The notes under the pieces are model-generated. The model saw only the letters and a list, made by a program, of their open reading frames with translations. It was not told where the DNA came from and made no database searches. A stretch of 64,000 nt of DNA from Scleroderma bovista (taxonomy: Eukaryota > Basidiomycota > Agaricomycetes > Boletales > Sclerodermataceae): contig JAYMGJ010000193.1 of the NCBI GenBank assembly GCA_037178675.1, forward strand, positions 62,001 through 126,000. Reading direction: 5' to 3'. Positions 9,391 through 58,560 of the stretch are shown here, in pieces (positions within the stretch are counted from its first letter, which is position 1; each line of letters starts with the position of its first letter). The translations under genes were made by a program, and so were the position numbers.

Positions 9391-9800
9391 AATGCGGCGA
9401 TCACGAAGGACACCACAAGAACAATCCCTAAACCTGTGGTTGTGGTTGTCCATGTCAATGAGCAACCAGCACGTGCATTGGTTGACACGGGATCGCTAGC
9501 TGATTTTATGTCGCTGAATTTAGCAGAACAGCTGCAAGTGAAACGAGCTTGGCTAGAAAAACCATTACCAATTCAATTGGCTGTGCAAGGCTCCCGATCG
9601 AAGGTAAACTTTGGCGTCAACGTCTGCTTCCAGTACCAGGGAACAGACTACCAGCGATATTTCGATGTGATAAACTTGGGAAATTACGACATTATTTTGG
9701 GAACACCGTTCTTGTACCAACACCAGGCACTGGTGGGGCTAAATTCTTCGAGATTAATTATAGGATGCAAAGAACCTAAAGAAATGAGAGGACCACAGGT
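9391..9800 (+). pseudogene. Retropepsin-type aspartic protease domain
   Basis: The domain would cut the gag-pol precursor. The catalytic motif is visible as ALVDTGSLADF (about 9475-9507), and the second conserved region is YDIILGTPFL (about 9685-9715). It lies directly upstream of the reverse transcriptase in one frame. The domain itself has no internal break, but the frame entering it has a TGA at 9388 and the frame leaving it a TGA at 10126. Confidence 0.85.
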
Positions 9801-9929
9801 GTCAGTACTCGAGTCCCATGCCACCGAGGTATATGAAGAAAGTCTGGAGAAGGTCCGAAGGTACTTACATGAGTTGGCTCAACCACTGTGTCCAGAAGGG
9901 GGAGCAACGGCGCTACCACCATTCCGCGC

Positions 9930-11250: not shown

Positions 11251-13273
11251 ACCAGGGACCATCCGCGCACCCGAGGAGTACTTACAATACGATGCAAATG
11301 TTGAGACGAGCACCACAAGTAAGGGATTGGTGCTGAGTGCACCACTCTTTGTGGGTGCAGAAGCACTTGCGATCTCACCAAGACGGAGCTCTCGCTTGCA
11401 ACAGGGGGCAAAAGAAGTGACACCAACCCCAGTGCCCCCCAGGTCCTCCAGGCCCACACCGCCAGCCACTAAAACAAAGCAAAGGACAGGGCAGGAGGGA
11501 CCGCCCGTAGCAAGCACATCCGCTGGAACCCAACCACGTGCGACACGAAAGGGACCCCCGCCACCTGCTGAAACTGGCCGGCCGGAAACCGGCGCCGAGT
11601 TTGCAGCACGAATGCGTGATCACTTCGTTCTCCTGGGCCCAGGCGAACGACGGAAGGGGGGAATGGGTACAGGCACCCAACACAACAACGAGCGCAACCA
11701 ACAACGTGGCTCCGTATCGCATAACACCGACACCGGCACCAATGAACAACGTTCAACAATACGCATACCGGTAACCTACCCACATGAAGAAAAACTGCTA
11801 TCGCAGATAAAGGGCCAATATCATAAAGACCCATTCTACAAGAAAATCTTGGACTCACCGCATAGTTTCAAGAACTTCGAAACACCAGACAGCGGCTACA
11901 TACACCTGAAGCTTGCAGACCGAAAAGTGTTATGCATACCAAACATTCAAGAAGGTGAACGACGCCTACAGGAAACCATCAGGCACATTCGCTACTGGCA
12001 CATTTGGGCCATAAGAAAACTCTAACCTACTTAAGGGAATATGTCTGGTGGGAGTCAATGGGACCCGACGTCCAAGCATTCTGCAATTCCTGCATAACAT
12101 GTCAGAAGAGTAAACCGATGACACAGAAACCTTACGGATTACTAAACCCGCTATCTGTACCCTCTGAACCCTGGGGGAGCAATAGGCGTAGACTTTGTTG
12201 GACCATTACCTGAATCAAAGGACAGGAACGGAGAATACGACTCGATCACCGTAATCATTGACTTGCTAACCGCCATGGTGCATCTGGTACCCAGCCGAAC
12301 GAATTATACTGCAAAGGACATAGCTGAACTAATGTTCCATGAAGTATATAGACTGCACGGACTGCCAAGGGCGATCATCAGCGATCGAGACGTTTTGTTC
12401 ACTAGCCTGTTCTGGACACACCTGAACAAACTGATAGGGATACGCCAGAAGATGTCTAGTGCATACCATCCTGAAACCGACGGATCGACCGAAAGAGCAA
12501 ATAGAACGATTGGCCAAATGCTCCGAGCATGTATCGGACCCAATCAAAAGGATTGGGTAACGCGACTGCCTGCAATAGAATTCGCGATCAATATAGCTCG
12601 GTCCGAATCGACTGGATACGCGCCTTTCTTTCTAAACACAGGGCGAATGCCGAGAGCGATGATCTGGGACAGCCCTGGAAGGAACGAGTACCTGAATGTT
12701 AGGAGCTACGCTTGGAAAATGAAGTTAGCGTTGATGGCAGCGCATGATGCCCTCCTAGCAACGCGAGCTAAACAAACTATCCAAGCGAACAAGAAGTGCA
12801 GGATGTGTCCCTTGGAAAACGGAGACCTGGTGTACATATCAACCAAGAATATTAGTTACCCGAAAGGAACATCACGGAAACTCGTACCCAAGTTCATAGG
12901 GCCGTACCGCATCACTAAAGACTTCGGGAACAACTCGTATCGCATTGACTTGCCGGACAATCTAAAACAGCGTGGCATACATAATGTCTTCCATTCATCG
13001 CTACTGAGGATACACATACCTAATGACGATAGGCTGTTCCCTGGAAGAAGGGACGATCAATTGGAAGACCTGGGAGGGACTAACCGCGAATGGGCTGTTG
13101 ATAGAATATTACAGCACCGAGGAAGCCATTCGGATGCAGAGTTTGAGATTCAGTGGACGGCAGGCAATAAATCCTGGCTGCCATACCGCGAAGTGTCACA
13201 CCTGAAAGCATTAAATGATTATTTTGAGGCTATTGGGGTGACAGGAATAGAAAACTACAGGAATCAAACCTAG
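11251..13273 (+). pseudogene. Integrase with chromodomain-like C-terminus
   Basis: A proline/threonine-rich spacer (11300-11760) precedes the integrase, which inserts the cDNA. Shifts near 12000 and 12190 split the zinc-binding region (HKKTLTYLREYVWW, CNSCITCQKSK) from the core. The core, open from about 12180 to 13273, shows GVDFVGPL, IISDRDVLFTS and ETDGSTERANR, matching the D,D,E catalytic residues. Then come a GPYRI-type module (GPYRITKDFGNNSYRIDLP) and, at about 13088-13235, a chromodomain-like segment (EWAVDRILQHRG, FEIQWTAGNKSWLPYREV) that in chromoviruses steers integration to heterochromatin. The stop at 13271 is followed by non-LTR sequence. Confidence 0.9.
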
Positions 13274-13490
13274 GATGAAACTACCTTTATCCGTCGGATA
13301 TTCTATCAACTGTAATTCGAAGCAAACAAACACTGCCCTTCATCACAAATTTACAGTCGGGGCCATACTTCTACAGCTCCCAGCAACCCAGTAAGTATTC
13401 ACTAATTATTTCGTGTGGTATATTGCTTTCATATCACGTTTAAAAAGGATGGGTTTAACCTCAGGACAACCACGTTTCCTTGCCGTGTAT
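13274..13490. other. Junction between the Ty3-type element and the LINE
   Basis: About 215 bp with no gene and no match to the 5609-5920 LTR. It probably holds Ty3 3' untranslated sequence followed by the LINE's 3' end. The LINE tail has no poly(A) run that I can see on its own strand. Confidence 0.4.
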
Positions 13491-13583
13491 ACAAGCTCAG
13501 GCCAAATAAGACCTCGCCGGCACTAACAGTAACAAAGAGTAGAGAAGAGGAGTAGAAGATAAGGAAACAAACGAGAAAAACTA

Positions 13584-15440
13584 TTACAGCAAATAGGACA
13601 GGTGCTCAGGTAAGTCCACATGCAGAACAGTAGAAGGCAAATGAAATGACTGACTACGCAGACGACGTTTAAAATCTGCCCAAATATGAGCAGCAAGACG
13701 GATGGAATGAGTATGCCATGCTTGCGCGACCCGGATGAGAACCTTCTCAGACACACTGACATTGTGAGAGCGACAAATCACAGTGAGTGATGGTAAGACC
13801 CCAAGATAATACACGGAGTGGACCTGCGGCCAAACATCCGCATCATCACAGAAGAGGCGACGAGCAACGGCACAGAGGATCTCCCCAACATAAGGCGGAG
13901 CTGCGGATAAAAGGTCACTCGTCGCTTGCACCAGAGCCTGCAGATGAGACCCCCGAACCTCAGTAAAAGCAGAGCACTGGACAAAGACGTGATGAACGGT
14001 TTCAATGGCAGCACAGCCCATACGACAGCAGAGGGCGGTGTCCCCAAGCCGCCGGTAACGGATATCTGCAGTGTCGAGTTGGGCTGAGCGCAGGTAGAGC
14101 TGGAGTACTGCCGCAAACGCAGATGTAGCATGCAGATAAGGATGAGTCGGTGGCGGATGAGAGTCGTACAGGAAATGTGGTAAACGTCGGAGTGGGCGGA
14201 AAGATGAGTCTTGGGAGAGAACGAAAGCTAAAAGATGAGGCACGCAACGAGAGAGGTTAGTTTCAATATAGCCAAAAGAAGGGTGAAAAGGTGTAAACCG
14301 ATCCATCGTGAAGCTTGGCACCGGCACAGGGGGCGGCACAAAGGGTTGATGCTGTGCCGAAGTGGCATACAAGTCGACTAGTTTGTTGGCGAGTGACGCT
14401 GGAGAGGTCGATGATGTATGAGCATAAACATGCTGAACGGAGCAATGAGGGTTAGCAACCCGAGAGACCGAAGCCATCGATACAAAGAACGTGCAGGAGA
14501 AGAGCCAAAGGATGGACACAAAGAAGATGGTACAGGAGGAGCAAAAGCAATGCAACGCACAGACGGAAGGTGATCAGAAAAGATGGATACAGGGGAAGAA
14601 GACGACGCAGATAAAAGGAAGCTCGCAATTAAAGCATAAACTTCACCATGCAGAATCGAAGCATTAAGGCCTAGAGATGACAGGGACCCAACGAGGGAAG
14701 ATGAGGCTGTTACCGTCGCAAAAGTGACGGAACAGGGCTGGTGTGGGAATGGTGATGCTGGCAGCATCGAGGCGTCACAAACCACAATTGAAGCATCTGA
14801 AAGGCGATGTGATGGGTAAGTGCTGAGACTTGACAGGGTCTTGAGATAAGCTTCAGCAGTAGCACGCCGTGCTGATGGGGAAAGCAAAAGTTCGGATGAA
14901 GGACCTTGTACAAGCTCCTCCCAAGGAAGAGACTGCAACCACTGATGGATGGATGGCCAGTCCTTGTAAGTAGGCAGGGAGTTCTGAGGAGATTTGAAAG
15001 AAATGGTTGACACCGCAGGTTATCCAAACCCCCACATCAGAGAGGTTGCGATAACCAGCTGAAGCCAAGTTAAGAAGAATGCGAGCTGAGGGAGAGCACG
15101 GAAGGAGGTTAGCAACATGACGGAGGGGCACTTCGCCACTGGAAATATATGATTGGTCAGTGTCCACAAGGGAGAGACCGAGTGAGCGTAAAGCCGGCGG
15201 GAGAGAACGGAGAAATACAGTGGTTCAGCTGACACGTCCAGTCATGGTAGGTAATACAAGCCATGGTGCAGAAAGCCAGAAGAAAGTGATTTAAGTCACG
15301 AGCGAGACCAGATACTGCAGCAGCTGCATTCAAACGCGAGATTGAAGGAAAGTCAAAGCCTCCGAAAGTAAGAGGCAGAGTGAGTAAGCGAGTATTAAAA
15401 TGGAATGGAAAGCCAAGGTATTCATGCACGCGGTGGGCGA
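13584..15440 (-). pseudogene. LINE C-terminal half: connection, RNase H and zinc knuckle
   Basis: The coding phase must jump at least three times between 15440 and 14400. Recognisable parts are LGFPFHFNTRLLTLPLTFGG (connection), an RNase H-like domain with VVCDASMLPA (about 14760-14786), LHGEVYALI (about 14633-14659) and IFSDHLPSV (about 14560-14585) supplying D, E, D, and a C-terminal knuckle CRMGCAAIETVHHVFVQC at about 13977-14035. An RNase H after the RT plus a terminal CCHC is known from several plant and fungal LINE lineages. The last frame ends with a stop just before 13584. Confidence 0.75.
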
Positions 15441-15492
15441 TCCGAAAGTCCAGGAGAAGCGCATCCGCAGGAGTAAGGGGCTGGTATGCAAG

Positions 15493-17357
15493 TCAAGGTC
15501 GGATTTGGGAAACCAGTAGCTGAGAGAACAATTTACGAAGCATTGGGAGAGGGAGATGGGTACGGAAGTCAGGAAGTCGGAAGTCAGTAATGAGGTTGTC
15601 AAGAATTAGGAATTGCCGATGAGGCGCATTGACTTGAGTGCGGAGGAACTCGACATGATCAGTCACAACTTTGACTGATTGCCAAGTGGTGGCTGACGAA
15701 GATAGATCAGATGGGTCAACAGATGGCATTTGGAACAAGGCGGGAGGGTCATGGACCTGATGAGTGTATGCTTCTGACTTTGCCCATGAAGTGACCCAGC
15801 CATATGCTCCTTGGAAGCGCTCGAGACGAAGGCAAGTTCGCTGAAGTGCTGGTAGCGTTGTGGAGAGGATCTCAGAGTCATCCATGGCTTCGACCATGGT
15901 AACGAGAAGGGAGCCAGAGTCGCTAGGTAAATGTGGGTCATGATGATGGCAAGATCTGATCCAAAGAGTGCCAGGATCATCTCGTGTGCAGTCATAAGCC
16001 CAGCAGTTGCCAAGACTAGTTGTCAGGGTTGACTTGAGAGGAGATAGAGGACCTCCCTGCTTCGTCACCCCGGAAACGGAAAACGTATCAGTGAGACCAA
16101 AGGCTGTTTTAACCTGATATGGCACATCTGTCTGTGCTGATAGATCAAAATTAATAATGGTGTCCGGCAAACCATAGGCTTGAACTGCATCATAGAACCC
16201 TTCAGGTTCAAGGCGGTCGAAGCCCTTCATTTGGTCGCGCCGCAAAGCACAAAGGGGGACATGGTGTCTATTAGACCATGCCTCCAGTTGGGAGAAAAAT
16301 GAAAGCAAATCACGGGCCTGAACACCCAGTTGTGTTGCAATCTGACCCTCTGGAATAACAAGGTGGTCAGCAAGATAAGGCAGAAGAAGACGGTTCAACC
16401 ACGCAAACGAAAGATTAACCAGGAGGTTACTGCAACAAACCCCTCGATAATTAGCGAGTTCCAAACGAGAACCTCGTTTATGAAGTGTAGAAAGTGTTGA
16501 GGCTTTAACACAAGCTGGAAAATGGGAATTCAAAACATGATAATTCAAAAGGTCAACAACGAGAGAAAGAGCATGATCAGAGAGGAGGCAAATCTGCCAC
16601 TTTTCCCATCTGTCAGGCCCAGGAGCTGGGCAGGAATTACCTTTACGAAGAAGAGCACGGAGACCAGTAACAGTGATTGGTTGTGGCCAGGAAAAGGGGT
16701 CCTGTTGAAGCTGTGACCGCAGCTTGACCACAGAAAAAGCGTTGAGCCACAGCTTTGCTACTGGGGCTCGTTGTTGCCGACTGAACAACTGGAGGAAGTA
16801 GTCCCGTGTTGCCCGGCGAACGTCTGAAGGTGCAGTGAGAAAAGACCCAGGCGTTGTAGCATCCGACAGAGCAACTGGTCCCGCAGTAAAATGATTGGGA
16901 TAGAGCCGTTTGGCAGAACCCCCACGTAGTGAAAAGCCAATGCGGGCCTGTTCAAAATCTTGTTGACGTCGGGTAAGTTCTGTCTTCACAGCTTGATATC
17001 GAAGTTTAGAAATTGAGCGTCGGATGTTCCGGAGAAAGTCATGGAAAGATGTATTTCCCGAAATTTGCAGGTGAGCCTGATAGGCCAAGCGGTATTGGTG
17101 GGCCCAAGGTTGAGTATCACATAAGACCTGTAACCAAGCTGACCCAGCCTTAAGGGCAAAGATGAGGCGACCAATGCGGCGCCCCTCACAGACCAGAAGT
17201 CGGATGGTGCAATAGCAGAGAATTGTTCCAGAGAAAATGCAGACTCCACAGTGAGTGATGAAGCGGGTGTCTGGATTGTGGGTGGAATATCTCCGTGGGA
17301 AATAATCGGATTTACGTCGGAACTTGACAGGCAGATAGACCACGGTCTAGGCTCCAT
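15493..17357 (-). pseudogene. Non-LTR reverse transcriptase
   Basis: Would reverse-transcribe the element RNA at the target site. The N-terminus is best read from 17357 (FSLEQFSAIAPSD, conserved in the second copy as FSLDHFSAIAAD). The frame then changes near 17200 to one open down to 15493. RT motifs in order: CPAPGPDRWEKWQ, NYRGVCCSNLLVNL, the motif-A region LRRDQMKGFDRL (about 16205-16245), motif B TKQGGPLSP (about 16045-16070) and motif C AMDDSEIL (about 15868-15894), where the usual F/YADD reads MDD. Downstream frames near 15500 shift again. Confidence 0.85.
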
Positions 17358-45134: not shown

Positions 45135-47669
45135 CATCAGCAAATCCCTTGTTTTGGGACAGCGCTTACAGTAATTACCTTAATAGTACAGTATGTGACA
45201 GCAATTACAGCATACATTACTACAGGGTCCCAGTTCCATGGGAATGCAGCACTGACACAGCATGTCACAGTATGTTGATTTTTTTGCAAATTTCACTAAG
45301 TCCCGTCCCATCACTTACCCCACCCCCACTCTCCCCCACTCCACCACATAATCAATTTGCACTGTTTGTGCACAATGCTGTCCAACTACCACCCTCTTTA
45401 CCACACCAAATGATGGTGACAACAGCCACCACACTCAACAGCAACATCTACCACCACCACCACCACCACCACACCAACACCGTGTGTTGATCGCCAACAC
45501 CACTTGTCAACAGCCACCACCCCATCATCAGCATCAATGATGATGATGGCGATGGCTGCAACAACCACAGCACCAGCACACACGCACGCGGCGACGTGAC
45601 CACCACCACCACCACCACTGGTCTCGATGACCCCAGCGCCAGCACGCACATTGCAACGCGACTGCGATTGCAACCATGACCACGACTGACAATGACGAGA
45701 CAACCCCAGTCACGCACGCAGTGGCACGACCACGACTAGCAATGATGATGGCCCCACATCAGCAAACCAACCCTCCCCTGGACAGCTATCCCAGAACCCC
45801 AGCTCTCCCAACAAGGTACCTAACTGGGTGACTTAGCACAGACTGTCCCAGCACTGTCCCAGGCTGTTCCAGCTGTCCCAGACTGTTCTAGAGTGCTCAC
45901 AGTAGTACCCATAGTACCTTTGCTACTTGTACTTTTTGATCACCTTAATTCATTCAATGTTTGTGTCAATCAATTTATATTAATTCCCTACAGTACAAAG
46001 AGTTGGTCGTCACATTGTTGACCATAGTTGATGCTGGTGGGGACGTTGTTGTTGTTGTTGGCGTCGGTGGGGATGACGTCATTGTTGGTAGCCGCATTGA
46101 CAACGGTGGTGGTGGGTCATTGTCATCGTTGCGGACACAGGTGGTGGTGGCCACATCTTCATTGGCGTTGGTGGTGGTGGTCATGTCGTCGTCGATGGTG
46201 GTGGGGTGGTGGTGGTCGACGAATGAAGAGAATGAAAATGAGAGACTTAGAGAAATTTCAAGTATGTGTGTGTGCATGTGTTTGTCTAATGATTATATCA
46301 GCATATTGCACTATCAACATTTCCTAATAGTGTTTACCACGTCACTACATGCCTCGCCCACAGCCACCATCCCCACCAGCATCGTTGATGTGACCATCAT
46401 CAGCGACGACGATGATGGCTAGGCCATCACCACCACTCCACCACCAGCGTCGACAGCCACCACCAATGCGAGGGAAATGACGGCCCCACCACCAATGTCG
46501 TCGACATGGCCACTGACAACAACGACCCCCACCATCAATGTCATCAATGTGGCCATCAATGCTGGCAATGATGACAACGACAATGACCCCGCTGCCATCC
46601 CCAGCATCAACGGCGGCAACGCAACCACCCACATCCCCAGCGTTGACAGCAACAACAGGATGACTCCCATCCCAGCATCATCCGACAATGATGCCCCTCC
46701 AACGCCCACCAACCTCCCAGCCACCACACCAGCGCAGTGTCGAAGATCGCCCCCCTGTGTTCAACAACCACCCCGATCATATAAATATATTATTTAGTTA
46801 TCTACTCCATAGTTTTAGTCCTAATACATTTTTTTTTTCTTTACTGAATATTTGAATTGAGTGACAACCAGACTGGCACGGAGTCTGACAGACTGGCACA
46901 GAGTCCGACAGGCTGGGTGGTCGGCTAAGCGCTGTCAAGTGCTGTCAGCTCGGCTAATTGGAAGGGCTGGTTTGCTGATGCCAGCGCCAGCACAGATGCA
47001 ATGCAACCACCACCACCACCACTGGTGTCAACAACCCAGTGCCCACCCCATGCCTGCACACTGCGACACAACCACAATCACAACCACAATTTATGACCCA
47101 CCACCACCCACCACTAACATTGACAACCCAGTGCCCGCCCCCATGGATGTTGTGACACAACCACCACCACCACTACTGACGGCGATGACCCCAGTGCCAC
47201 CACACATGCACGTTGCGACACGACCACCACCACCACTAGTGTCAACAACCCAGCACACACACTGTGGCGTGACCACCACCACAATGACAAGGCAGCATTG
47301 ATGACGATGATGACGACAATGAGTGCATGGCCAGTGCCACAGTGGTACAACGGCGACTATGGCAAGGAGGAATGATGATTGCAACAAAGAATGGGGACAA
47401 CAACAATGCTACAGCAGATGGTGTAGAAGGAACCAATTAGTATTTAGTAGATTACAATGTAGTAGCTACAATTGAATACAGGGTTATGCAGTTTGACTAC
47501 AGAATGACACAGTGTGTTGCAAAGTGTAACAGTGCTATACAGTGGACAGCGCACGAGATTCTGTGTCACAGTGTTGTACAAATGGGGACCTATCTGTACC
47601 ACTGTGGGAACTGTAGCTGACTGTACAGCTTTGCACAGCTCAGCACAGCAACTTAGGGTTTTGCTGATG
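45135..47669. mobile_element. 2.5-kb DNA element with CATCAGCAAA termini (host of a nested copy)
   Basis: Starts CATCAGCAAATCCCTTG. The right end reverse-complements to CATCAGCAAAACCCTAAG. TG flanks both ends (45133-45134, 47670-47671). The interior is CCACCACCA-rich (45420-45620, 46990-47300) and is split by the related 45757-46980 element. No coding sequence that I can support. The same terminal decamer and the 2-bp duplication tie it to the 39765-44497 element. Confidence 0.6.
45757..46980 (+). mobile_element. 1.2-kb nested internal-deletion derivative
   Basis: Ends CATCAGCAAACCAACCCTCC and, inverted, CATCAGCAAACCAGCCCTTC. Its first about 150 bp match 39765-39910 and the remainder matches about 43320-44497, so it equals the large element minus about 3.4 kb, joined at a GTA shared by both sides. 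Flanks are CA and CC, a possible mutated 2-bp duplication. It lies within the 45135-47669 element. Confidence 0.65.
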
Positions 47670-47689
47670 TGTGTTTGATCTGATTTTGT

Positions 47690-48690
47690 GCAAATCATGG
47701 ATACCTTGCAAAACATACCATCTGATCTGCATAAATGACACATAGCAGGAAACCATGATTTGTACAAATCAGTGGGTATGTGATTTGCGCAAATCAGTGA
47801 GTATGGTGTGCGCAAGTCAGATGAATGGTTTTGCGCAAATGAATGGGTATGTGGTTTGCGCAAAACCATACCCTCTGACTTGCACACACCATACTCACTG
47901 ATTTGTGCAAATCAAATACACATTGAGTTGTGCAAAACATACCCTCTGATTTGCACACACCATACCCTCTGACTTGCGCACACCATACACACTGATTTGC
48001 ACAAATCACATACACATTGATTTGCGCAAACCATACACACTGAATTGCCCAAATCATACAAACCATGATTTGCGCAAAACCATACCATCTGACTTGAGAT
48101 AATCAGTGGGTATGTGATTTGCGCAAATTAGTGGGTATGGTTGTGCAAATCAGATGGTATGGTTTTGCGCAAATCAATGGGTATGTGATTTGCGCAAATC
48201 AGTGGGTATGGTGTGAGCGACTCAGAGGGTATGGTTTGGCGCAAATCAATGGGTATGTGATTTGCGCAAATCAGTGGGTATGTGATTTGCGCAAATCAGT
48301 GGGTATGTGATTTGCGCAAATCAGTGGGTATGGTTTGGCGCAAATCAATGGGTATGTGATTTGCGCAAATCAGTGGGTATGGTTTGGCGCAAATCAATGG
48401 GTATGTGATTTGCGCAAATCAGTGGGTATGGTGTGAGCGACTCAGATGGTATGGTTTGGCGCAAATCAATGGGTATGTGATTTGCGCAAATCAGTGGGTA
48501 TGTGATTTGCGCAAATCAGTGGGTATGGTTTGGCGCAAATCAATGGGTATGTGATTTGCGCAAATCAGTGGGTATGGTTTTGCACAAATCAGTGTGTATA
48601 GTTTGTGCAAACCCCATACCCATTCATTTGCGCAAATCATACAAACCATGATTTGCGCAAACTATACACACTGATTTGTGCAAGTTTCTT
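47690..48690. repeat. About 25-bp array built on a perfect palindrome
   Basis: Dozens of units of about 25 bp alternate between GTATGTGATTTGCGCAAATC and a GTATGGTTTGGCGCAAATC-type variant. The 16-bp core TGATTTGCGCAAATCA is its own reverse complement. Left of about 48085 most units read in one orientation (CATACNCACTGATTTG), right of it in the other (CAAATCAGTGGGTATG), so the array as a whole is a large inverted structure. No gene is present. Confidence 0.9.
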
Positions 48691-48784
48691 GTAAAAATCT
48701 CTTATTTTGCACTAAATAGTGGATCAAATGTTGGGATAACCCTGTCCAACCCTAACCAACTTAACAAATAGATATAGAATCGTG

Positions 48785-49639
48785 AGAGAGTAAACCTGGG
48801 TAGTCCCGGGTGTCACGTGATCACCGGCTATCGGTTCAATGCGGTCCGGTCACGTGATCAGGCACGAGCTGTCTGCGGGTCTAGGCCCGGTCCGACTCCG
48901 GTCGGATAAATTACTCCGATCAATCTCCGACTTTTTTCCGACAGGCACATGGCGCCCGGATAGAAGTTCTTTAACGAAGTGGGGCTAGTGCGCAACAGGG
49001 CCGATGTCCGATTGCGCCGTGACAACCGTTACTGTCACCGCCCCCCGGCTATTTAGTTATCCGCTTCTGTAGAACAATAGAATCTACAAATGGAGTTATA
49101 TCGGGTGTTCTTCGGGACAATGGCCGCTCTGCAAGCGGCGCCCGATTGGCTGGATAAGCATCGGGTCTAAAGGATCAGAAGCTCCAGAAGCATTTCCTAT
49201 TAGGTAACGCCTAATTTGGATCTTGCATTGTCCAAGACAATGGTAAGCTAAACGGTTTATTGTTCATCCTGTATATATCGGGAGTACATCACCGGGAAGT
49301 TGGTTCACCTGACGATCGGGTCGCGATCGGCTGAGTGTAGTGCCGCTCTGCCCCCACTACGTGGTTCTCGCATCGGAGACGCTTGCCAGTCTAGTAGCAC
49401 CGAACCAACGGTAACCAATGGGATAAGTCACTCTTATCAACGCTTGCGATTCGGACTCCGCTCTAAATCCCTGTCCATGCAATATATAAAGAGACGAAAA
49501 GAGGCTGATGAGACTTCAAGTCGAAAGAGCCAGCCTTCGGTGTTTACACTAAAGGCCCCTTCCTCCCTCGTCTTTTCTCATCGCCTATTAACACTGGCAA
49601 CCCGTTGGCACTACCCTGTGTGGTGTACTTCCCCCCTAA
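48785..49639 (+). repeat. 855-bp direct repeat, copy 1 (Penelope LTR-like)
   Basis: Aligns almost without gaps to 52985-53840. It starts AGAGAGTAAACCTGGG and ends at CCCCCCTAA. Many differences between the copies fall in pairs that preserve hairpins (stems at 49019-49038, 49068-49088, 49103-49144 and 49354-49364). It contains hammerhead motif 1 near its 3' end. No coding frame. It behaves like the long repeat (pLTR) of a Penelope-like element. Confidence 0.85.
49493..49572 (+). ncRNA. Hammerhead ribozyme motif 1
   Basis: Core CTGATGA (49505-49511), stem II GACTTCAAGTC (49512-49522), GAAA (49523-49526). Stem III hairpin GCCTT/AAGGC (49533-49537 with 49552-49556). Predicted self-cleavage after CUU at 49559-49561. 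Stem I has an internal loop: GACG and GAGG (49493-49504) pair with CCTC and CGTC (49562-49572). All invariant core bases are present. Hammerheads are known in Penelope-like elements. Confidence 0.85.
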
Positions 49640-50110
49640 CCGGCGTGAGTCGTCGACCGGTCATGCTCGCGATGCTACTTACCGTGGTAGCGTTCGCTGC
49701 TCCTGCGATCTAGTGTCTGGCGTAAGTCGTCGATCGACTGCGCTCACGATCGCCTACTTACGTGACGGACGTCCGCTGCTCTAGCGATCTGGTGGCAGGC
49801 GTGAGTCGTCGACCGGTTGCGCTCGCGACGGTACTTACGTTGGTAGTGCTGTTGGCAGCAGGGATCTCGTGGGGCCAGCGTAAGTCGTCGACCGAGTGTG
49901 CAGGCCCTGCTACTCACAGTGTCGGTAATGCCACTAGCAGCAGTGGTCTAATGGGCCAGCGTAAGTCGTCGACCGGTTGCGCTCCCAAAGGTCGGTACTC
50001 ACATCGGTAGTGCCACTAGCAGCAGCGGTCTAATGGGCCAGCGTAAATCGTCGACCAGGTGTGCAGGCCCTGCTACTCACCATGTCAGTAGACGAAGTCT
50101 AGTGGGTATT
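49640..50110. repeat. About 100-bp tandem repeats with GTCGTCGACCGG
   Basis: Units begin GCGTRAGTCGTCGACCG and recur at about 49644, 49720, 49800, 49880, 49961 and 50040, each followed by a GCTCGCGA-type phrase, a TACTTAC/TACTCAC phrase and GCTGCT. The array starts exactly where the first 855-bp repeat ends. No gene. Confidence 0.75.
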
Positions 50111-51165
50111 AGGTTAGCATTCCCTAGTCAGACTGGTCTACTCACAGACATCGTTTGGTTAGTGTTCCAAATGAGGAAGGTAGTGGTTCAAGGTCAAGAG
50201 AGGTTTCAGCACAGCCGCTCAGAATTGGCTGACTTTGAATTCTGTTTCCATTCATATATGGTAGGTGATTCCAGAACTGCTATCTCTAGCAACCCACTCC
50301 TGTGAGTCTGTCCATATGGAGTAATCATAGGAGTGGTGAATTGTCCCACGCTCGACGAAAAATTCCCACATTACATGACCCTTCCAAATATGGCTTTGAC
50401 ATCATCATTCCATATATGATCACGTGGCTGTGCAGTGACACTTGGTTCAAGTCTACGAGTAGGGTTGTTCGTTGGTTGACGATCTTAGTGACGCAGTCCG
50501 TCGACCGGTTGTGCTTGTCCTTGATGGTCCTCGCCGAGTAGACGACCGATGAGGCTTTATAGTTTGTTGACTCGCTGCATGCTCGGTGGTACCGGTCGTG
50601 CTGCTTATCGTCGTTTGATCGTGGCTGATGGCCATGGGCTTGCTGCACAGGTTGGTCGGTCGATTGGTCGCACCATCGTCGATGGTCGTGATTTAGTTCC
50701 CTGCATGTTCTGTTCTGTTGACTGCAACAGCCACATGAACTGAGCTGCTAAGTATCACCACTTAATATTCCCATGCTCTCATGCCTTATGACCCTTTTCA
50801 AATATGATGGTGATAATCCATTCTCTATAGTCTACTGATTCACCATCCATCCCTACTGCACACTTGATCGACTCGTTGTGCCATCCTCGCTGCGTAATCC
50901 GTCGACCAGTTGCGCAAGGTGGTCGGGCGACTCCAGTGATTTCATCCATATGATGGGTAGACATTCCCAGTGGATAACTAGTCTAGTCTACCATCCCATC
51001 TTACTGCACACTTGGTTGATCGGTTGCACCATTCATAGTCTACTTTACTCACTGCGCAATTTGTCGACCAGTTGTGCAGGCGATTCCATCTGTGTAGTGA
51101 ATTGATGATCATTTACCTAACATCTGATGGTCAACTGGTTGTGTCCATTCATAGTCTACTTGCTC
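50111..51165. other. Diverged repeat region
   Basis: About 1 kb with scattered GTCGACCGGTTG/GTCGACCAGTTG motifs (50498, 50900, 51065) in sequence that otherwise shows no period or gene. It looks like a decayed continuation of the neighbouring arrays. Confidence 0.45.
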
Positions 51166-52980
51166 TCTGCACAATCCATCGACCGGTTGTGCAGGTGATT
51201 CCAGCGATTCCAGTGGCTGTGTAGGCGATTCCAGCGATTCCAGTGGCTGTGTAGGCAATTCCAGCGATTCCGATGGCTGTGTAGGCGATTCCAGCGATTC
51301 CAGTGGCTATGTAGGCGATTCCAGTGATTCTGGTGGCTGTGTAGGCAATTCCATCTGTATAGCAGTAGGTGATTCCGTCCCCTTGTGTAGTGAGCAATTC
51401 CATCTGCATTGGTGAATCTCCACATCTGACTACACACTCGGTCGACCAGTTGCGCCATGAGTCTACTTGCTTGCTGTGTGACCCATCGACTGGTTGTGAG
51501 GGTGGTCAGGTGACTCCAGTGATTCCATCCCAGTCCTTGGTACTCTGATCTAGCTGCACACTCGGTCGACCGGTTGCGCCGTTCATGATCTACTTGCTTT
51601 CTGCACAATCCATCGACCAGTTGTGCAGGCGACTCCAGCAATTCCATTCATATAATGGTAGGCGATTCCAGCGATTCCGGTGGCTGCGTAGGCGATTCCA
51701 GCGATTCCAGTGGCTATGTAGGCAATTCCATCTGTATAGCAGTAGGCAATTCCATTCCCTTGTGTAGTGAGCAATTCCATCTGCATTGGTGAATCTCCAC
51801 ATCTGACTGCACACTCGGTCGACCAGTTGCGCCATGAGTCTACTTGCTCACCGTGTGACCCATTGACTGGTTGTGAGGGTGGTCAGGTGACTCCAGTGAT
51901 TCCATCCCAGTCCTTGGTACTCCGATCTCGCTGCACACTCGGTCGACCGGTTGCGCTGTTCACGATCTACTTGCTCTCTGCACAATCCATCGACCAGTTG
52001 TGCAGGCGACTCCAGCGATTCCGTCCATATAATGGTAGGCGATTCCAGCGATTCCGGTGGCTATGTAGGCGATTCCAGCGATTCCAGTGGCTGTGTAGGC
52101 GATTCCAGCGATTCCGGTGGCTATGTAGGCCATTCCATCTGTATAGCGGTAGGTGATTCCATCCCCTTGTGTAGTGAGTGATTCCATCTGCGTTGATGGA
52201 TCGATAATGGTCTACCATCCACGTCTGACTGCACACTCGGTCGACCAGTTGCGCCATGAAGTCTACTTGCTCGCCGTGTGACCCATCGACTGGTTGTGAG
52301 GGTGGTCATAACAAACATAAGGCCTGTGGTCGGGTGACTCGCTGCACACTCGGTCGACCAGTTGCGCCGTTCATGATCTACTTGCTCTTTGCACAATCCA
52401 TCGACCGGTTGTGCAGGCGACTCCAGCGATTCCGTCCATATAATGGTAGGCGATTCCAGCGATTCCGGTGGCTATGTAGGCGATTCCAGCGATTCCAGTG
52501 GCTGTGTAGGCGATTCCAGCGATTCCAGTGGCTATGTAGGCGATTCCAGCGATTCCAGTGGCTATGTAGGCGATTCCAGCGATTCCAGTGGCTGTGTAGG
52601 CGATTCCAGCGATTCCGGTGGCTATGTAGGCGATTCCAGCGATTCCGGTGGCTGTGTAGGCGATTCCAGCGATTCCAGTGGCTGTGTAGGCGATTCCATC
52701 TGTATGGCGGTAGGCGATTCCATCCCCTTATGCAGTGAGCGATTCCATCTGCATTGGTGAATCTCCACGTCTGACTGCACACTCGGTCGACCGGTTGCGC
52801 CGTGCGTCTACTTGCTCGCCATGTAACCCATCGACCGGTTGTGTGGGTGGTCATAACAAACATAAGGCCCGTGGTCGGGCGACTCGCTGCGCACTCGGTC
52901 GACCGGTTGCGCCGGCGATTCCGGCGATTCCGGCGATTCCGACGATTCCGTCGCCCGGAAGCCGATTCCTCGGGTAAGAA
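51166..52980. repeat. 30-bp repeats in a higher-order array
   Basis: The 30-bp monomer GTAGGCGATTCCAGCGATTC plus CAGTGGCTGT (or CGGTGGCTAT) is repeated in blocks of two to eight. Blocks are separated by a longer conserved spacer with ACACTCGGTCGACCGGTTGC and ATCTACTTGCTCTCTGCACA, so larger units start at about 51170, 51590, 51965 and 52375. The last block is the longest and ends in a pure GGCGATTCC run (about 52910-52950). Because 30 is a multiple of three, several frames stay open. None is a credible gene. Confidence 0.88.
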
Positions 52981-52984
52981 TATT

Positions 52985-53840
52985 AGAGAGTAAACCTGGG
53001 TAGTCCCGGGTGTCACGTGATCACCGGCTATCGGTTCAATGCGGTCCGGTCATGTGATCAGGCACGAGCTGTCTGCGGGCCTAGGCCCGGTCCGACTCCG
53101 GTCGGACAAATTACTCCGACCGATCTCCGACTTTTCTCCGACAGGCACATGGCGCCCGGACAGAAGTTCTTTAACGAAGTGGGGCTAGCGCAGAATAGGG
53201 CCAATGTCCGACTCCGCCGAGATAACCGTTACTATCTCCGCCCCCCGGCTATTTAGTTATCCGCTTCCGGCGGACTATTGTTCCGCTAAATGGAGTTACA
53301 TCGGAGGTTCTTCGGAACAATGTCCGCTCTGCAAGCGGACTCCGATTGGCTGGATAAGCATCGGATCTATCGGATCAGAAGCTCCAGAAGCATTTCCTAT
53401 TAGGTAACGCCTAATTTGGATCTTGCATTGTCCAAGACAATGGTAAGCTAAACGGTTTATTGTTCATCCTGTATATATCGGGAGTACATCACCGGGAAGT
53501 TGGTTCACCTGACGATCGGACTCCGACGGCTGTGTGTAGTGCCGCTCTGCCTCCTCCGACGGAGTTCTCGGCATCGGAGACGCTTGCCAGCTTGGTAGGA
53601 ACCGGACCAACGGTAACCAATGGGATAAGTCACTCTTATCAACGCTTGCGATTCGGACTCCGCTCTAAATCCCTGTCCATGCAATATATAAAGAGACGAA
53701 AGAGGCTGATGAGACTTCAAGTCGAAAGAGCCACGCTTCGGTGTTTACACTAGAGCGCCCTTCCTCACTCGTCTTTTACTCATCACCTAGCAACCTGGCT
53801 ACCCGTTGGCACTACCCTGTGTGGTGTACTTCCCCCCTAA
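52985..53840 (+). repeat. 855-bp direct repeat, copy 2 (Penelope LTR-like)
   Basis: Second copy of 48785-49639, offset by 4200 bp. It ends with CCCTAA at 53835-53840, which is followed by a second CCCTAA. It keeps the same hairpins with different bases (for example GAGATA/TATCTC at 53219-53238 where copy 1 has GTGACA/TGTCAC) and contains hammerhead motif 2. It lies about 330 bp upstream of the reverse transcriptase start. Confidence 0.87.
53695..53773 (+). ncRNA. Hammerhead ribozyme motif 2
   Basis: Core CTGATGA (53706-53712), stem II GACTTCAAGTC (53713-53723), GAAA (53724-53727). Stem III is CGCTT/GAGCG (53734-53738 with 53753-53757), where motif 1 has GCCTT/AAGGC, so two base pairs changed on both sides. 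Predicted cleavage after CUU (53760-53762). Stem I: GACG..GAGG with CCTC..CGTC. Confidence 0.88.
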
Positions 53841-53846
53841 CCCTAA
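53835..53846 (+). other. Two telomere-type CCCTAA units
   Basis: CCCTAACCCTAA directly follows the 855-bp repeat. CCCTAA/TTAGGG is the telomere repeat of many fungi. In this orientation it lies at the 3' side of the plus-strand element, as expected if cDNA was primed from a G-rich telomeric 3' end. Confidence 0.7.
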
Positions 53847-53916
53847 GTAACTTTGCCGTACCAACCCCGCTGTTTGAGATTCCGACTCAGCAACGGTCTA
53901 CGGATAAAAGAGATAA

Positions 53917-53993
53917 CGAGAAGGGCTGATGAGACAATAAGTCGAAAGGCACCCCGGTCTTCTGTCCCCGCACAGGAACCACCTTCCCTCTCG
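53917..53993 (+). ncRNA. Hammerhead ribozyme motif 3
   Basis: Core CTGATGA (53926-53932), stem II GAC-AATAA-GTC (53933-53943), GAAA (53944-53947). Stem III starts GG/CC and holds an inner hairpin CTGT/ACAG (about 53961-53974). Predicted cleavage after CUU (53983-53985). Stem I: CGAGAAGGG with CCCTCTCG, one bulged A. It lies between the telomere-type units and the reverse transcriptase gene. Confidence 0.8.
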
Positions 53994-54167
53994 CACTCGT
54001 CTCTCTAGCTCCGCAAGCTGGACATATCGCAAAAATCGCTTCGCGATTTTTGCTCCCACCTAACCTAAGCCCACATTCGCGGCACATACGAATCCTTCCG
54101 TCAGGAGCTTCCAACTCTTGCCGTGAAGATCGTCCTTCTGTCACGTGCCAAGGTAACCGCCCTCGTC

Positions 54168-57095
54168 ATGCGACAGAACAAGAAGAAGGAGGTGAAAAAC
54201 GCTGCCGACGTTATGATGAGTGACCTTTCGTCAAAGGACACCATCTTCAAAATGGTTGACAAGAGGGTCAAGCAAGCGTTGCGAACCGTCAAGGTTCAAA
54301 AAGGTACCATGAATACTCGTTCCAGAGATCCCGAGCTAACCCTCTCTCCTCTTGAACGCGTATTTCATGGTAGGTCACGGCAAAGGCAAGAAGGGCAAGA
54401 AACAGCCCCAAAGCGGTGCCGCCGCGAAGAACAAATCCCGACAAGGGAAGAAATCCTCGCCGCCGTCGACCTCGAAGAAGACGAAATCAAAGACGTCGCC
54501 CGCTCGACCTTCTGGGAGCAAGTCTCAGAAGAAGAGGTCTGGGAAGAAGTGATCTCGTTTCTTCAACAGGTACGCAATGGTAGCGCTCTCTACGATTCGC
54601 CGTCCACTTACCCAAACTTTGTCACAGAGTTGCCATTGGAATGGGGGGCCGCAGTAATCATACGAACGCTTTGTCCTGTACAGTACTTACAACACTCTTT
54701 GTTTCTACATACTGTGCACTATGGACCCGATGTCATCTTCGAATGGGAAGACATTAAGTACCTGCGTGAGCTAAGCATCGGTTGGAAGTTTATGCTTCCA
54801 CAATACGCCAACCATTCTCTCATCCCAGCGGCTTGGGAAGATCTTAAAGATCGCTTGAGATGGCGCATGCATTTCATAGAGACCTCTCTATTTAATGACC
54901 AAATGCCTACACCGTTCGAACCAGACTACGACGTTCCTCGAACACGTAAGCCGTTCAATCAGGAACCAAATTATCTCCTTGAATGGGCACTCCGCGAAGG
55001 AGACCGTTATGTAGACTCTGTCTCTACGGCATGCCAAGCGGAGAGGAAGGTCGGCACCATCCGATCTCCCACCGTCACAGCCATTCAAAATTGGATTAAA
55101 TCCAAGGGTTACGTCGTCACGCCGACAGACAAAAACCTAGGAGCTTGCGTAGTAACTGGTGACTGGCTCGATCGGGAGACCCGTAAATTAATCTTCGGAC
55201 CAAATACGGGTTACCGAGCTCTTGGCGCGGAGGAAGTCTCTGACTTCCTAAACGTCAAACTAGGCGAACTAAAGCAATCAGTGGACTACATCAAAGATGC
55301 ACTCCACGACGAAGATACTAAGCAACTCTGCCAGTATCTCCGCCAGCACTTTCCGATGGAGGTCACCCCTGAAGGGATTCGTTTGTCACAAACGAACATC
55401 ACGGGGCAGATCAAACTTCCATCGTTCTATGGGATTCCTAAGGTACATAAGAAACCCATACGCATGCGACCGATTGCACCGTGCCATTCTGCACTGCAGA
55501 ATCCATTGGCCAAGTTCGTTTCAAAAACACTTAAACCGATCGTTGCATCTGAACCGTCCATTTGCAACGGGACAAAAGAAATTGCGCTTGAGTTAACCAG
55601 CTTAACTCTCCCACAATTTGTCCCCTTATGGTTAGTTGGTGGAGATATCGTCGCATATTATCCTAATATCGACGTAAAGCGGGCAGTTCAAACGGTTACC
55701 CGCTTAACCAACATCGCGTTATGCGACCGGTTCCTACCGGCAAATCACGTCATTCGACGCCTGCCTAGGGACCATTGGTCACATATCCTTACCGCCGCTG
55801 TGTCTAACCTCGTCGTTGAACACAACGGTCTCCCCTATCTCCAAACAAAAGGTATTGCAATGGGCGTTGCATGTTCTCCGGACATCGCGAACATTTACGC
55901 AATCGAAGCGGATCAGGAAATAACGTCCCACCCCGCTGTATTATTCTATCGACGCTACATCGACGACATCTTTGCCGTCATCCAAGCGCCCACGGCCGCC
56001 GAGGCCCTGGACATTGCCAAGCAAAACTGGCACTTGGAAGGATGTTCCGTTGACTGGGCCACGCCGGGAAGATCCTTAGTCTTCCTGGACATGTTCATTT
56101 ATCTCGATGAACACAATAAGGTTCAATGGAGACCTTACCGTAAGCCCGGTAACCACCTTGAGAGAGTTCCATGGGATTCCTCACACCCGTATGACGTTAA
56201 ACGAGGAACGTTCATCGGAGAGTTATCCCGATTGGCGGTGTTGTCTAGTAAGCGGAACACTTACATGACTGCAGCTAAGAATCTCGCTGCCCTCTACCTT
56301 AGTAGAGGATACCCCGATCGCGTCGTCCGAAAGTGGTTGTCTGACCACATTCACACTCGTTGGGAAAACCGGTTTGCCATTAAAGCCGACAACGACGAGA
56401 AGGACATTATTGTCCTTAAGACCCACTTTAACGACGCTTGGAGCGATTTTTCCATATCGGAACTTCTTCGCCACATTAGTAAGCCTCTCAAAGCTGTAAG
56501 CGACAGCTGGGAGAAGGGAGATTTCGTCATTAATAATGATGAAGAGCACCCCTTACGACGATGGCAGTTTCGGCTGCCGTTCTTCCCCGAAAGTTCACAG
56601 TTCCCGAAGGATGCTTTTCCGCTCCTTGATAGGGCAACCGTCCAGAAGGACCTGTGGCACGAGTACGAAGGAGACGTCGTCTATGGACCGGTCACTTACC
56701 TTGACCTCCATACACTACTTGTGGATAATTCGAAATGGGTCGTATCCCGTAAGCGCACTAAGCGCCTCGGCGACCTTGCTCTTCTTTGGAAGAAGTCCGT
56801 CTTAGACACGTATCGGGAAGTGGAACCCGGCCCCTCTACGTACGATATCGTAAGGGGAATCGACGCCGCATATCGGCACGAACATGATATGAATCGCTTA
56901 GCCATGGATGAAGCGGAATTACTAATGTCCCGCGCTGGATTCACGGTAGCCGACTGTATCTGCGGACCACCTTGGTCTGTCGGAATACTTCAGCAACCGC
57001 CCCCTCCGTTAGTACAGGACTGGCTTAAACGATTTAATGCCACCTGGGAGGATCCAGAACCGATTAGGCAACGCCGTCGCACAGTCCGAGATTGA
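54168..57095 (+). CDS. Penelope-like reverse transcriptase, intact, no GIY-YIG seen
   Basis: About 975 codons from the first in-frame ATG (54168, MRQNKKKEV), uninterrupted. The basic N-terminus is followed by an acidic region (about residues 80-130). RT motifs in order: TPTDKNLGACVV (about 315), YGIPKVHKKPIRMRPIAP (about 420), GGDIVAYYPNID (about 491), KGIAMGVACSPDIANIY (about 561), catalytic YRRYIDDIF (about 594), FLDMFIYLD (about 639), and the Penelope hallmark YRKPGNH..HPYDVKRG with GELSRLAVLSS (about 657-690). The C-terminal 270 residues show no GIY-YIG endonuclease motif, as in telomere-associated Athena/Coprina elements. It would copy its RNA by priming, probably from chromosome ends. 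It is the only long intact frame in the window, so it may be recent or active. Confidence 0.95.
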   Translation: MRQNKKKEVKNAADVMMSDLSSKDTIFKMVDKRVKQALRTVKVQKGTMNTRSRDPELTLSPLERVFHGRSRQRQEGQETAPKRCRREEQIPTREEILAAVDLEEDEIKDVARSTFWEQVSEEEVWEEVISFLQQVRNGSALYDSPSTYPNFVTELPLEWGAAVIIRTLCPVQYLQHSLFLHTVHYGPDVIFEWEDIKYLRELSIGWKFMLPQYANHSLIPAAWEDLKDRLRWRMHFIETSLFNDQMPTPFEPDYDVPRTRKPFNQEPNYLLEWALREGDRYVDSVSTACQAERKVGTIRSPTVTAIQNWIKSKGYVVTPTDKNLGACVVTGDWLDRETRKLIFGPNTGYRALGAEEVSDFLNVKLGELKQSVDYIKDALHDEDTKQLCQYLRQHFPMEVTPEGIRLSQTNITGQIKLPSFYGIPKVHKKPIRMRPIAPCHSALQNPLAKFVSKTLKPIVASEPSICNGTKEIALELTSLTLPQFVPLWLVGGDIVAYYPNIDVKRAVQTVTRLTNIALCDRFLPANHVIRRLPRDHWSHILTAAVSNLVVEHNGLPYLQTKGIAMGVACSPDIANIYAIEADQEITSHPAVLFYRRYIDDIFAVIQAPTAAEALDIAKQNWHLEGCSVDWATPGRSLVFLDMFIYLDEHNKVQWRPYRKPGNHLERVPWDSSHPYDVKRGTFIGELSRLAVLSSKRNTYMTAAKNLAALYLSRGYPDRVVRKWLSDHIHTRWENRFAIKADNDEKDIIVLKTHFNDAWSDFSISELLRHISKPLKAVSDSWEKGDFVINNDEEHPLRRWQFRLPFFPESSQFPKDAFPLLDRATVQKDLWHEYEGDVVYGPVTYLDLHTLLVDNSKWVVSRKRTKRLGDLALLWKKSVLDTYREVEPGPSTYDIVRGIDAAYRHEHDMNRLAMDEAELLMSRAGFTVADCICGPPWSVGILQQPPPPLVQDWLKRFNATWEDPEPIRQRRRTVRD
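54367..54552 (+). other. Overlapping lysine-rich open frame
   Basis: In the +1 frame of the reverse transcriptase gene, an ATG at 54367 opens about 61 codons made almost entirely of K, S, G, P, Q and R (MVGHGKGKKGKKQPQSG). The same bases encode the acidic stretch of the main frame, because GAAGAAG-type codons read as E in one frame and K in the other. It may be a by-product of composition. A second product or a frameshift-made variant is the alternative. Confidence 0.25.
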
Positions 57096-57407
57096 TCCGG
57101 TAGCTGGGATCCTGTGTATCCACAGGACGCGTCAGCGCTCGTGTTTATCCGAATAAACATTGCCGCATTATCGGCTTTACCACTGCCTTGGATATTCCTG
57201 CGAAGGAAAAACCAATTTAGGTCATGAGCTTTATTTCCCATTGGTGCCCTGTTGTTTCAACGACACACCAGTGAGTCATGACCCGAAACAGCGGTGCCGA
57301 TCATGCTCGGTTACATCAAATATACCCCGATAAGGGGTTATTATTCACACACTTGCCCTAAGTGTGTCAACATGGCACAACACACCCTACTATTATATAA
57401 GGGTGAT

Positions 57408-57487
57408 GTAGAGAGCCACTGAAGAGTCAACCACCGACGAAAGCCCACCCCAGTGTCTACCACTTGAGGTGTCTTTGGCCACTCTAC
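57408..57487 (+). ncRNA. Hammerhead ribozyme motif 4, downstream of the gene
   Basis: Core CTGAAGA (57419-57425; the seventh core base is variable in hammerheads), stem II GTC-AACCACC-GAC (57426-57438), GAAA (57439-57442). Stem III: G/C closing pair, then CACC/GGTG (57446-57449 with 57468-57471). Cleavage after CUU (57473-57475). Stem I: GTAGAG and GCCA (57408-57418) with TGGC and CTCTAC (57476-57487). Sequence differs widely from motifs 1-3 while the architecture is the same. Confidence 0.82.
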
Positions 57488-57599
57488 GTGATTTGACTCG
57501 CTGAGTATAAACCCTATTACCCGCTGGTAAAGCTTTGCAAGATACTTGGTTTGAGACCACCGTTGACACCCGCGAAGTGTTCTTCGACACAGTCACCCG

Positions 57600-57910
57600 T
57601 TAATTTGCGCCGATGTCACCTAGGTCAAACGCAGCAGTCCTATCTTTCTTCCACCCGAACCAAGGCTTTGCGAAGTCCTTGTTGAGTTTCTCAATGACCT
57701 TCGCCTTGCGCTCAGCAAGCCAAGCGGCACGCTTATCCTTTGCCATCTTGAATACAGTGTCGTCGAACTCCTACCATAACTTGACAGCGCGAGTGGCGAC
57801 CCTGTGGATGGGTTCCCCAAGCTCCGAGTGAACAGTGAGGATACCACCGGGAGCAGCAACAATAAGGTTCTTGACGGAAGAGCTGTGCGAGCATCCTTGG
57901 CAACTATAAC
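57600..57910 (-). pseudogene. Fragment resembling fungal fatty-acid synthase
   Basis: The minus-strand frame reads LIVAAPGGILTVHSELGEPI, HRVATRAVKLW, stop (TAG), EFDDTVFKMAKDKRAAWLAE and LNKDFAKPWFGWKKD before a TAA at 57600-57602. The phrases are reminiscent of the large cytosolic type I fatty-acid synthase of fungi, but this rests on memory of the family. About 100 codons, one internal stop, no neighbouring exons: a captured or dead fragment. Confidence 0.45.
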
Positions 57911-57949
57911 ACAACTAACGAATAAAAACCTGTCTAAGGGCATGGCCCG

Positions 57950-58560
57950 CTGCGTGTTGTATTTTTCATGGGACCAGTCCCAGTGGCGCTGGCGTTGACG
58001 TTGAGAGTGCTGGTGCTGGCAGCTGGGGATGGTGCAGACGCTGGGAGACAGCTGGCATTGGTGCAGACGGTTGGGAGACGACTGGCAATGGTGCAGACAA
58101 CTGGGAGGCGGCGTACCTCGCGTTGAGATGACAGGTGCTGGCGCTAGTGCTGGTCTTGCCTGCCTGTCGTCGTCGTTGTTGTCCGCGTGTGGTATCGGGC
58201 GTCCATCGTCGTCAACGTCATCTGCGCAGTGTTGCCCGTTGTCGTTGCCGTCCGCATGTGGCATTGGCTGCCCGCCATTGTCGTTGTCGTTGTCTACATG
58301 CTGGCACTGGCTGCCCAACGTTGTCGTTGTCGTCCCGGTCTGTATGGGGGCCTTGACTTCCCGTTGTCACCGTCGTCGTCGTTCGCGTGTGGCATTGTTT
58401 ATCCGTCGTCATCGGCGACGTCTGCGCGCTGGTCTTGACTGCCTGTCGTCGGCTGTGTGTGGTAGTGCCGGTCGTCATCATCGTCCATGTGTGGCATTAA
58501 CTGCCCGTCGTCGTCAGCGTCTCCGTGGTGTGCTTGCTGTCCGTGCATGGCCCGAGGAAT
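57950..58560. repeat. GTC/CGT-rich low-complexity region
   Basis: Repeated phrases such as CTGCCCGYCRTYGTCGTTGTC, GCGTGTGG and CTGGCACTGGCTGCCC with a loose period of about 55-65 bp. Open frames on both strands follow the trinucleotide bias. No gene is supported. Confidence 0.6.

Follow-up and report, generated by a model that had tools for sequence, protein, structure and literature searches.

Hammerhead ribozyme motifs in the 3' ends of a chain of Penelope-like element copies in Scleroderma bovista

The window analysed here is a 64-kb stretch of one contig (G000:C193:62001-126000) of the Scleroderma bovista genome, which is assembled as 51.8 Mb in 850 contigs. Judged by its sequence, the window carries at least four element copies in a chain (table 1): two are represented by A tails, one by a B tail, and another is a Penelope-like reverse transcriptase (RT) copy that is truncated at its 5' end and has a D tail of its own. 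Unit 1 (A) comes first and is separated by minisatellite sequence from unit 2 (A); unit 3 (B) follows, and then unit 4, which comprises the RT and D.

Table 1. Features of the chain, in window coordinates.
Feature	Position	Strand	Evidence
Unit 1, 5'-truncated A-type 3' end (3' UTR, hammerhead A1, tail)	48775..49641	+	alignments to A units
Hammerhead A1, type I, CUU, predicted cut after 49561	49493..49572	+	R1 101.5 bits (building sequence), R2 97.9 bits, strict descriptor
Unit 1 C-rich 3' end CCCCCCTAACC, without further telomeric unit	49631..49641	+	tail census
GC-rich minisatellite filler between units 1 and 2	49642..52984	.	tandem and direct repeats
Unit 2, second 5'-truncated A-type 3' end with hammerhead A2 and tail	52985..53846	+	direct repeat, alignments
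Hammerhead A2, CUU, predicted cut after 53762	53695..53773	+	R1 102.6 bits (building sequence), covariation
Unit 2 C-rich end, then telomeric repeat CCCCCCTAACCCTAA	53832..53846	+	tail census
Unit 3, short B-type 3' end: hammerhead B, strong hairpin, C-rich/telomeric end	53847..54068	+	alignments, hairpin fold
Hammerhead B, CUU, predicted cut after 53985	53915..53995	+	R1 67.9 bits (building sequence), R2 71.7 bits
Unit 3 C-rich end and telomeric repeats CCCACCTAACCTAA	54055..54068	+	sequence, tail census
RT open frame, 1008 codons, 5'-truncated	54069..57095	+	RVT_1 E 2.8e-5, below cut-off; genome copies
Hammerhead D, CUU, predicted cut after 57475	57408..57487	+	R2 50.3 bits; not found by R1; 12 genome tail rows
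RT copy 3' end CCCTATTACCCGCTGG, joined to non-telomeric DNA	57512..57527	+	tail census

Unit 1 aligns over its full length, at 96-98% identity, with A units at five other loci (L032, L035, L037, L038 and L040), over most of its length at 90% with another A unit of L035, and at 91.5% with unit 2. Its tail is followed by TAACC and then by the minisatellite filler, in which we found periods of about 79-82, 30 and 377/411 bp. These minisatellites, which lie between two element 3' ends, are of the GTCGTCGACC type and of a 30-bp unit, GTAGGCGATTCCAGCGATTCCAGTGGCTAT. Unit 3 is 97-99.6% identical to B tails in L031, L034, L036, L037, L038 and L040. The RT copy begins directly after CCTAACCTAA, a 5' truncation capped by telomeric repeats, and the stop upstream of its frame is the last TAA (54066-54068) of the unit 3 telomeric repeat. 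Reading the direct repeat at 48785 and 52985 as a pair of LTRs was rejected, the repeat being two A-type 3' ends. Contig C12 carries the same chain, with 99.8% identity to C193 over the 10 kb compared. In the assembly the chain is interior, flanked by about 110 kb in the 5' direction and about 10 kb in the 3' direction.

The left flank of the chain (46700-48774) is a repeated, palindrome-rich minisatellite element ending in ATAGATATAGAAT. C489 matches the whole searched stretch and diverges from the window past the ATAGATATAGAAT end; C181, C546 and C497 match large parts of it. On C12, an inverted A tail (L048, G000:C12:48950-49270) faces the plus-strand chain across a short copy of this left-flank element, an arrangement of two chains with facing 5' sides that would be expected from an end-to-end fusion or an assembly join. 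At other loci, three chain units (L032 4171, L032 9832 and L034 9434) all start with CTGCAAACCTAACCGGTGGC behind a tail, a hint that short non-coding A units may have a fixed 5' end. Elsewhere in the window, at 6511-17346, long frames resemble, by eye, LTR-retroelement gag, RT/RNase H and integrase as well as a LINE-like RT.

The window RT frame aligns with P0011, a protein carrying both RVT_1 and GIY-YIG, with 27% identity over 454 columns. Motifs KNLG, PxFYxIPKxHK, QxxGxAMG and RxIDD are invariant across 11 aligned sequences, the first of which is a tandem copy from the window RT's own family. From this sequence comparison the RT is assigned to the Penelope-like type, related to RT plus GIY-YIG proteins; a search for solved structural relatives returned none at E up to 1. 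We detected no GIY-YIG domain in the window frame or in three long frames from tandem copies. A genome-wide search likewise gave no GIY-YIG domain; it reads frames ignoring introns and produced zero candidates, and is hence weak evidence. With a long frame that lacks GIY-YIG, the element is classified as an endonuclease-deficient Penelope-like element (PLE). The endonuclease-deficient PLEs of fungi go by the name Coprina.

The frame has 34 matches in the genome. Some are family 1 copies (82-100% identity), others belong to a second family (34-45%), and three weak ones lie in tandem on C263. These three have equal scores and a spacing of 7973 bp (G000:C263:2330-19781), and their sequence suggests a third tandem PLE family. 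Family 1 copies arranged in tandem on C238 have frames of 1238 codons, and the window frame is short of these by about 230 codons. The tandem units are spaced at 4165 bp (C238) and 4799 bp (C8), and each contains one frame of at least 300 amino acids, the RT.

The sequence-only reading had placed four hammerhead motifs on the plus strand around a Penelope-like RT. All four are found where it put them, the third being set by our models at 53915-53995. The core CTGANGA...CGAAA matches four times in the 64-kb window, while shuffled sequences gave a mean of 0.37 and a maximum of 3, and none of 100 shuffles reached 4. A strict type I descriptor (stem II of 3 bp, GAAA, a 15.2:16.2 pair, U16.1, H17 and stem I of 4 bp) recovered exactly the same four motifs on the plus strand and none on the minus strand of the window. 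With 200 first-order Markov sequences it gave a mean of 0.005 and a maximum of 1. A chance origin of the four motifs is ruled out by these shuffle counts and the Markov expectation.

A CUGANGA...GAAA core, three helices and an open stem I place the motifs in type I, as judged by descriptor and covariation. In their common anatomy, stem I is open, stem II has 3-4 bp, GAAA is present, stem III is long and the cut site is CUU; stem III in the window hammerheads has a short segment at its base, followed by an internal loop and a hairpin in two parts. On the 3' side of each hammerhead lies a further hairpin, strong in B and C and weak in D, and then the C-rich end. Counted from the predicted cut, the C-rich run ends after 75 nt in A1, A2 and B, but after 47 nt in D. 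The uniform CUU that had seemed unusual is real: it is present in 4/4 window hammerheads and in 71 of the 72 parsed copies at the examined loci (25 distinct), the remaining one having CUC. The parse demands U16.1, a non-G at 17 and a paired 16.2 and thus selects for stem pairs, and we used it for pair types and the cut triplet only.

Scoring with the Rfam hammerhead families had been proposed as a check, and by that measure the claim would fail, with all four motifs at background. No Rfam family reached its gathering score in the 64-kb window, and no Rfam hammerhead family was listed at E up to 10 in 48.5-58.5 kb. We take this miss as a limit of the Rfam models, not as a defining feature of the motifs, because custom covariance models and covariation gave strong results. 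A first covariance model (R1) was built from four A sequences and one B sequence, among them A1, A2 and B of the window. It gave 68 matches at E up to 0.1 in 44 sequence sources (269,352 bases) and detected classes outside its building set, with C copies at 39-51 bits and 2 of 12 D copies at 29 and 26 bits. The window D motif was not found by R1 at E up to 10; a second model (R2), to which the two D copies from other loci were added, recovered it (table 1).

Pair counts were taken from the model alignment A4, because a MAFFT alignment over the four classes misaligned GAAA in C and D. Over its 27 distinct rows, 92% of cells were paired and 13 of 22 pairs showed changes on both sides, figures that lean toward the structure to which A4 was fitted and that include only two D copies. 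Slid controls were 40-51% paired with at most four both-side pairs. Compensatory change can be seen within the window, where stem III reads GCCUU/AAGGC in A1 and CGCUU/GAGCG in A2. Single-sequence folding gave z-scores against shuffles of -2.5 (A1), -2.1 (A2), about -0.3 (B, -0.25) and -2.4 (D); A1, A2 and D thus fold about 2 s.d. better than shuffles, and the B hammerhead alone no better. The exact hammerhead was the minimum-free-energy fold in 0/5 sequences, and the constrained fold was 1.4-4.7 kcal/mol worse under an energy model without terms for the hammerhead core's own contacts. The minimum-energy fold of D retains the three stems. For the A hammerheads (49490-49575 and 53691-53776), core GGCU is paired in the best fold with AGCC from the stem III internal loop, a modelled competing structure in which the core would be blocked. 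On the evidence of sequence, fold and covariation, we regard the four motifs as real type I hammerheads for which self-cleavage is predicted. Fungal PLE hammerheads were reportedly described by Cervera and de la Pena in 2014 as stable in the form of monomers.

A 3' module of hammerhead, hairpin and C-rich end recurs across the host genome, and each window motif is part of one such module. Tail rows number 43 for A, 37 for B and C together and 12 for D genome-wide; at the examined loci we followed 72 tails (36 A, 12 B, 12 C and 12 D). These tail counts are not independent events, because many copies are near-identical and C193 and C12 share one chain. A further CCTAA unit lies within 32 nt of 44 of the 60 A/B/C tails (A 26, B 10, C 8), where the count includes the tail's own CCTAA and 'further' means two or more. 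Directly abutting CnTAACnTAA was seen at 39/60. Random positions in the same loci gave 0.5% (within 32 nt) and 0.2% (abutting). Another nine A/B/C tails run into their own element's 5' start (A 5, B 1, C 3), and seven show neither outcome. Among the 12 D tails at the examined loci, none meets telomeric repeats and three run into their own start.

All 12 full 5' starts found at the examined loci follow a tail of their own class. The proposed tie to Penelope-like RTs is borne out by the genome loci, at which RT copies precede the tails: A, B and C tails elsewhere follow second-family RT frames with distinct C-termini, and D tails follow family 1. Second-family arrays lie near contig ends, which are not proven chromosome ends, with their 5' side toward the end (C247, C653, C81, C497, C836, C8, C838 and C217). 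Interior second-family matches were found once on C444 and once on C8.

The earlier picture of three ribozymes upstream and one downstream of the gene is correct for their positions. As a grouping it does not stand, since only D belongs to the window RT copy. Having three motifs upstream is not a property of the element, because each of these lies in the 3' end of a different copy (A, A and B), all stacked head-to-tail. A single element with three upstream ribozymes and one downstream would account for all motifs lying on one strand within 8 kb and for the repeat of the arrangement on C12. However, A, B and D tails occur separately elsewhere, with other neighbours, telomeric repeats follow units 2 and 3, and C12 and C193 share one chain. 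We consider a single element hardly credible.

The genomic copies also bear on whether the hammerhead was cut in the RNAs that were copied. In the A class, on which this was tested, the 43 tail rows have no start or end closer than 10 nt to the cut site, and the C-rich end is reached by 40. A 701-base A 3'-UTR query gave at least 57 rows (from the best 40 of 61 candidates), of which 19 were set aside as covering only class-shared parts; among the matches listed, 36/38 rows continue into the hammerhead, and all 36 of those pass the cut. As no A copy ends near the cut, the copied A templates were therefore uncut there, or re-ligated. A cut-and-re-ligated or circular template would leave the same junctions.

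We think it likely that the window holds a chain of at least four endonuclease-deficient PLE copies whose RNAs had a type I hammerhead, a hairpin and a C-rich end as their 3' module, with the hammerhead uncut or re-ligated in the copied RNAs. At the RNA level, the order of events that we infer begins with priming, in which the C-rich RNA end of A, B and C elements would base-pair with a chromosome's TTAGGG overhang. From the C-rich end, the RT would then copy toward the RNA 5' end, often stopping early and so leaving a 5' truncation. Telomeric repeats or the next element would be added afterwards, and copies would stack with their 3' ends inward. In such RNAs the hammerhead probably serves as a 3' fold, either to present the C-rich end or for recognition by the RT, and cleavage, if any, would act on other transcripts. 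Uncut tail RNAs would then end in CCCCCCUAACC. In support we observed recurrent tails, telomeric-repeat junctions, 5' truncations and the absence of A copies ending at the cut site. Counting against the telomere model are unit 1, which is without a further telomeric unit, the non-terminal position of the chain and the 0/12 D tails with telomeric repeats. Also counting against it, the best unconstrained fold is never the exact hammerhead, and B does not fold better than shuffles.

Alternatively, the hammerheads may be processing ribozymes of the kind proposed for retrozymes: tandem arrays would be transcribed through, the hammerheads would cut the long RNA into units, and these would be made circular and copied around the circle. 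This would agree with the same-class head-to-tail joins without extra telomeric repeats, seen for 12/12 full 5' starts, and with the 4165-bp tandem units of C238. It would also agree with a C copy (L033+789) that seems to run on upstream through a complete tail and to end within the upstream hammerhead, provided that this tail did not arise by an insertion of its own. Yet no A copy ends at the cut site, and long uncut tandem transcripts account equally well for the joins. Moreover, a linear cut unit would have the C-rich end at its 5' side, from which priming would copy only about 75 nt. We regard processing as possible but rather unlikely.

The hammerheads could instead be inherited relics of an older PLE life cycle without a present role, in keeping with uncut templates, with minimum-energy structures that depart from the hammerhead fold and with degenerate copies such as L055. 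Against this, four tail classes retain the core and the stems with compensatory changes. The canonical core is present upstream of 64 of the 72 tails at the examined loci, and at least four of the other eight are truncated copies. This makes relics improbable.

The preferred reading of a template left uncut or re-ligated has a more specific form, in which the hammerhead is competent and held uncut in the template while the 3' fold docks the C-rich end on the overhang. Cleavage would be slow or conditional, perhaps following priming or RT binding, and the hammerhead would serve for timed release of the docked tail, not as a processing enzyme. Slow or conditional cleavage was considered because of the uniform U at the cut position and the competing GGCU/AGCC pairing in A. 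We judge this form speculative and on the whole unlikely.

The telomere model does not cover the family of the window RT copy (D), because none of the 12 D tails meets telomeric repeats. The right flank of this copy (57529-58500) has a full-length 100% match at C1:52698-53669, where the chain is absent. Beyond the join the C1 flank continues differently, and GCTGG (57523-57527) is, by eye, common to both sites. Since the right flank is uninterrupted in C1 and GCTGG is shared at the join, the RT copy probably started at a broken, non-telomeric end and would later have been capped by B and A copies. Alternatively, the junction between chain and flank may be an assembly join; C12 and C193 differ to the left of the chain.

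Endonuclease-deficient PLEs are known at telomeres, also in fungi, where they are described as being primed at telomeres or breaks and as having telomeric repeats at the truncated 5' end after priming (PMC3846280). The fungal elements in that description and the copies reported here have in common a PLE-type RT without GIY-YIG and 5'-truncated copies with telomeric repeats, a likeness drawn from the description only; the window RT family (D) differs in not being joined to telomeric repeats. In the Terminons (Athena) of bdelloid rotifers, a hammerhead is reported near the RNA 3' end beside C-rich, telomere-like repeats, in chains of 5'-truncated copies (PMC6431247). The elements of this genome, too, have both a hammerhead and a C-rich end in their 3' part and form chains of truncated copies. 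Unlike Terminons, the units in this genome are not giant, measuring about 4.2-4.8 kb, with one long RT frame and without accessory ORFs of 300 amino acids or more. Here, a hairpin and a spacer lie between hammerhead and C-rich end, the cut falls 47-75 nt before that end, and stem III is long.

PLE and Terminon hammerheads are summarised in PMC7761336 and PMC6155905 as minimal, usually without helix III and perhaps acting as dimers. The motifs studied here share with those of animal PLEs their type I assignment, the core and the location in PLE terminal sequence, whereas they have a long two-part stem III hairpin. What sets them apart from the PLE and Terminon hammerheads so described is their long stem III, together with the distance at which the C-rich end lies. 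Retrozymes also carry hammerheads in repeated terminal retroelement sequence; their RNAs are described as small non-coding circles (PMC6155905), in contrast to the coding copies and mostly telomere-like A/B/C ends found here.

Four hammerhead classes were found in this genome, and their members in the window are missed by curated RNA models. The role of hammerheads in PLEs has been termed a mystery (PMC7761336). For a lizard PLE, PMC11167929 reports that insertion in vitro is normal when the ribozyme is mutated and that reverse transcription begins within the RNA. In the present genome, the points at which reverse transcription started are preserved in dozens of A copies, and in none of them is this the ribozyme cut; natural A copies thereby agree with the lizard in vitro result. 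If our reading of the D copy is true, the locus would be the record of a chromosome break patched by a retroelement.
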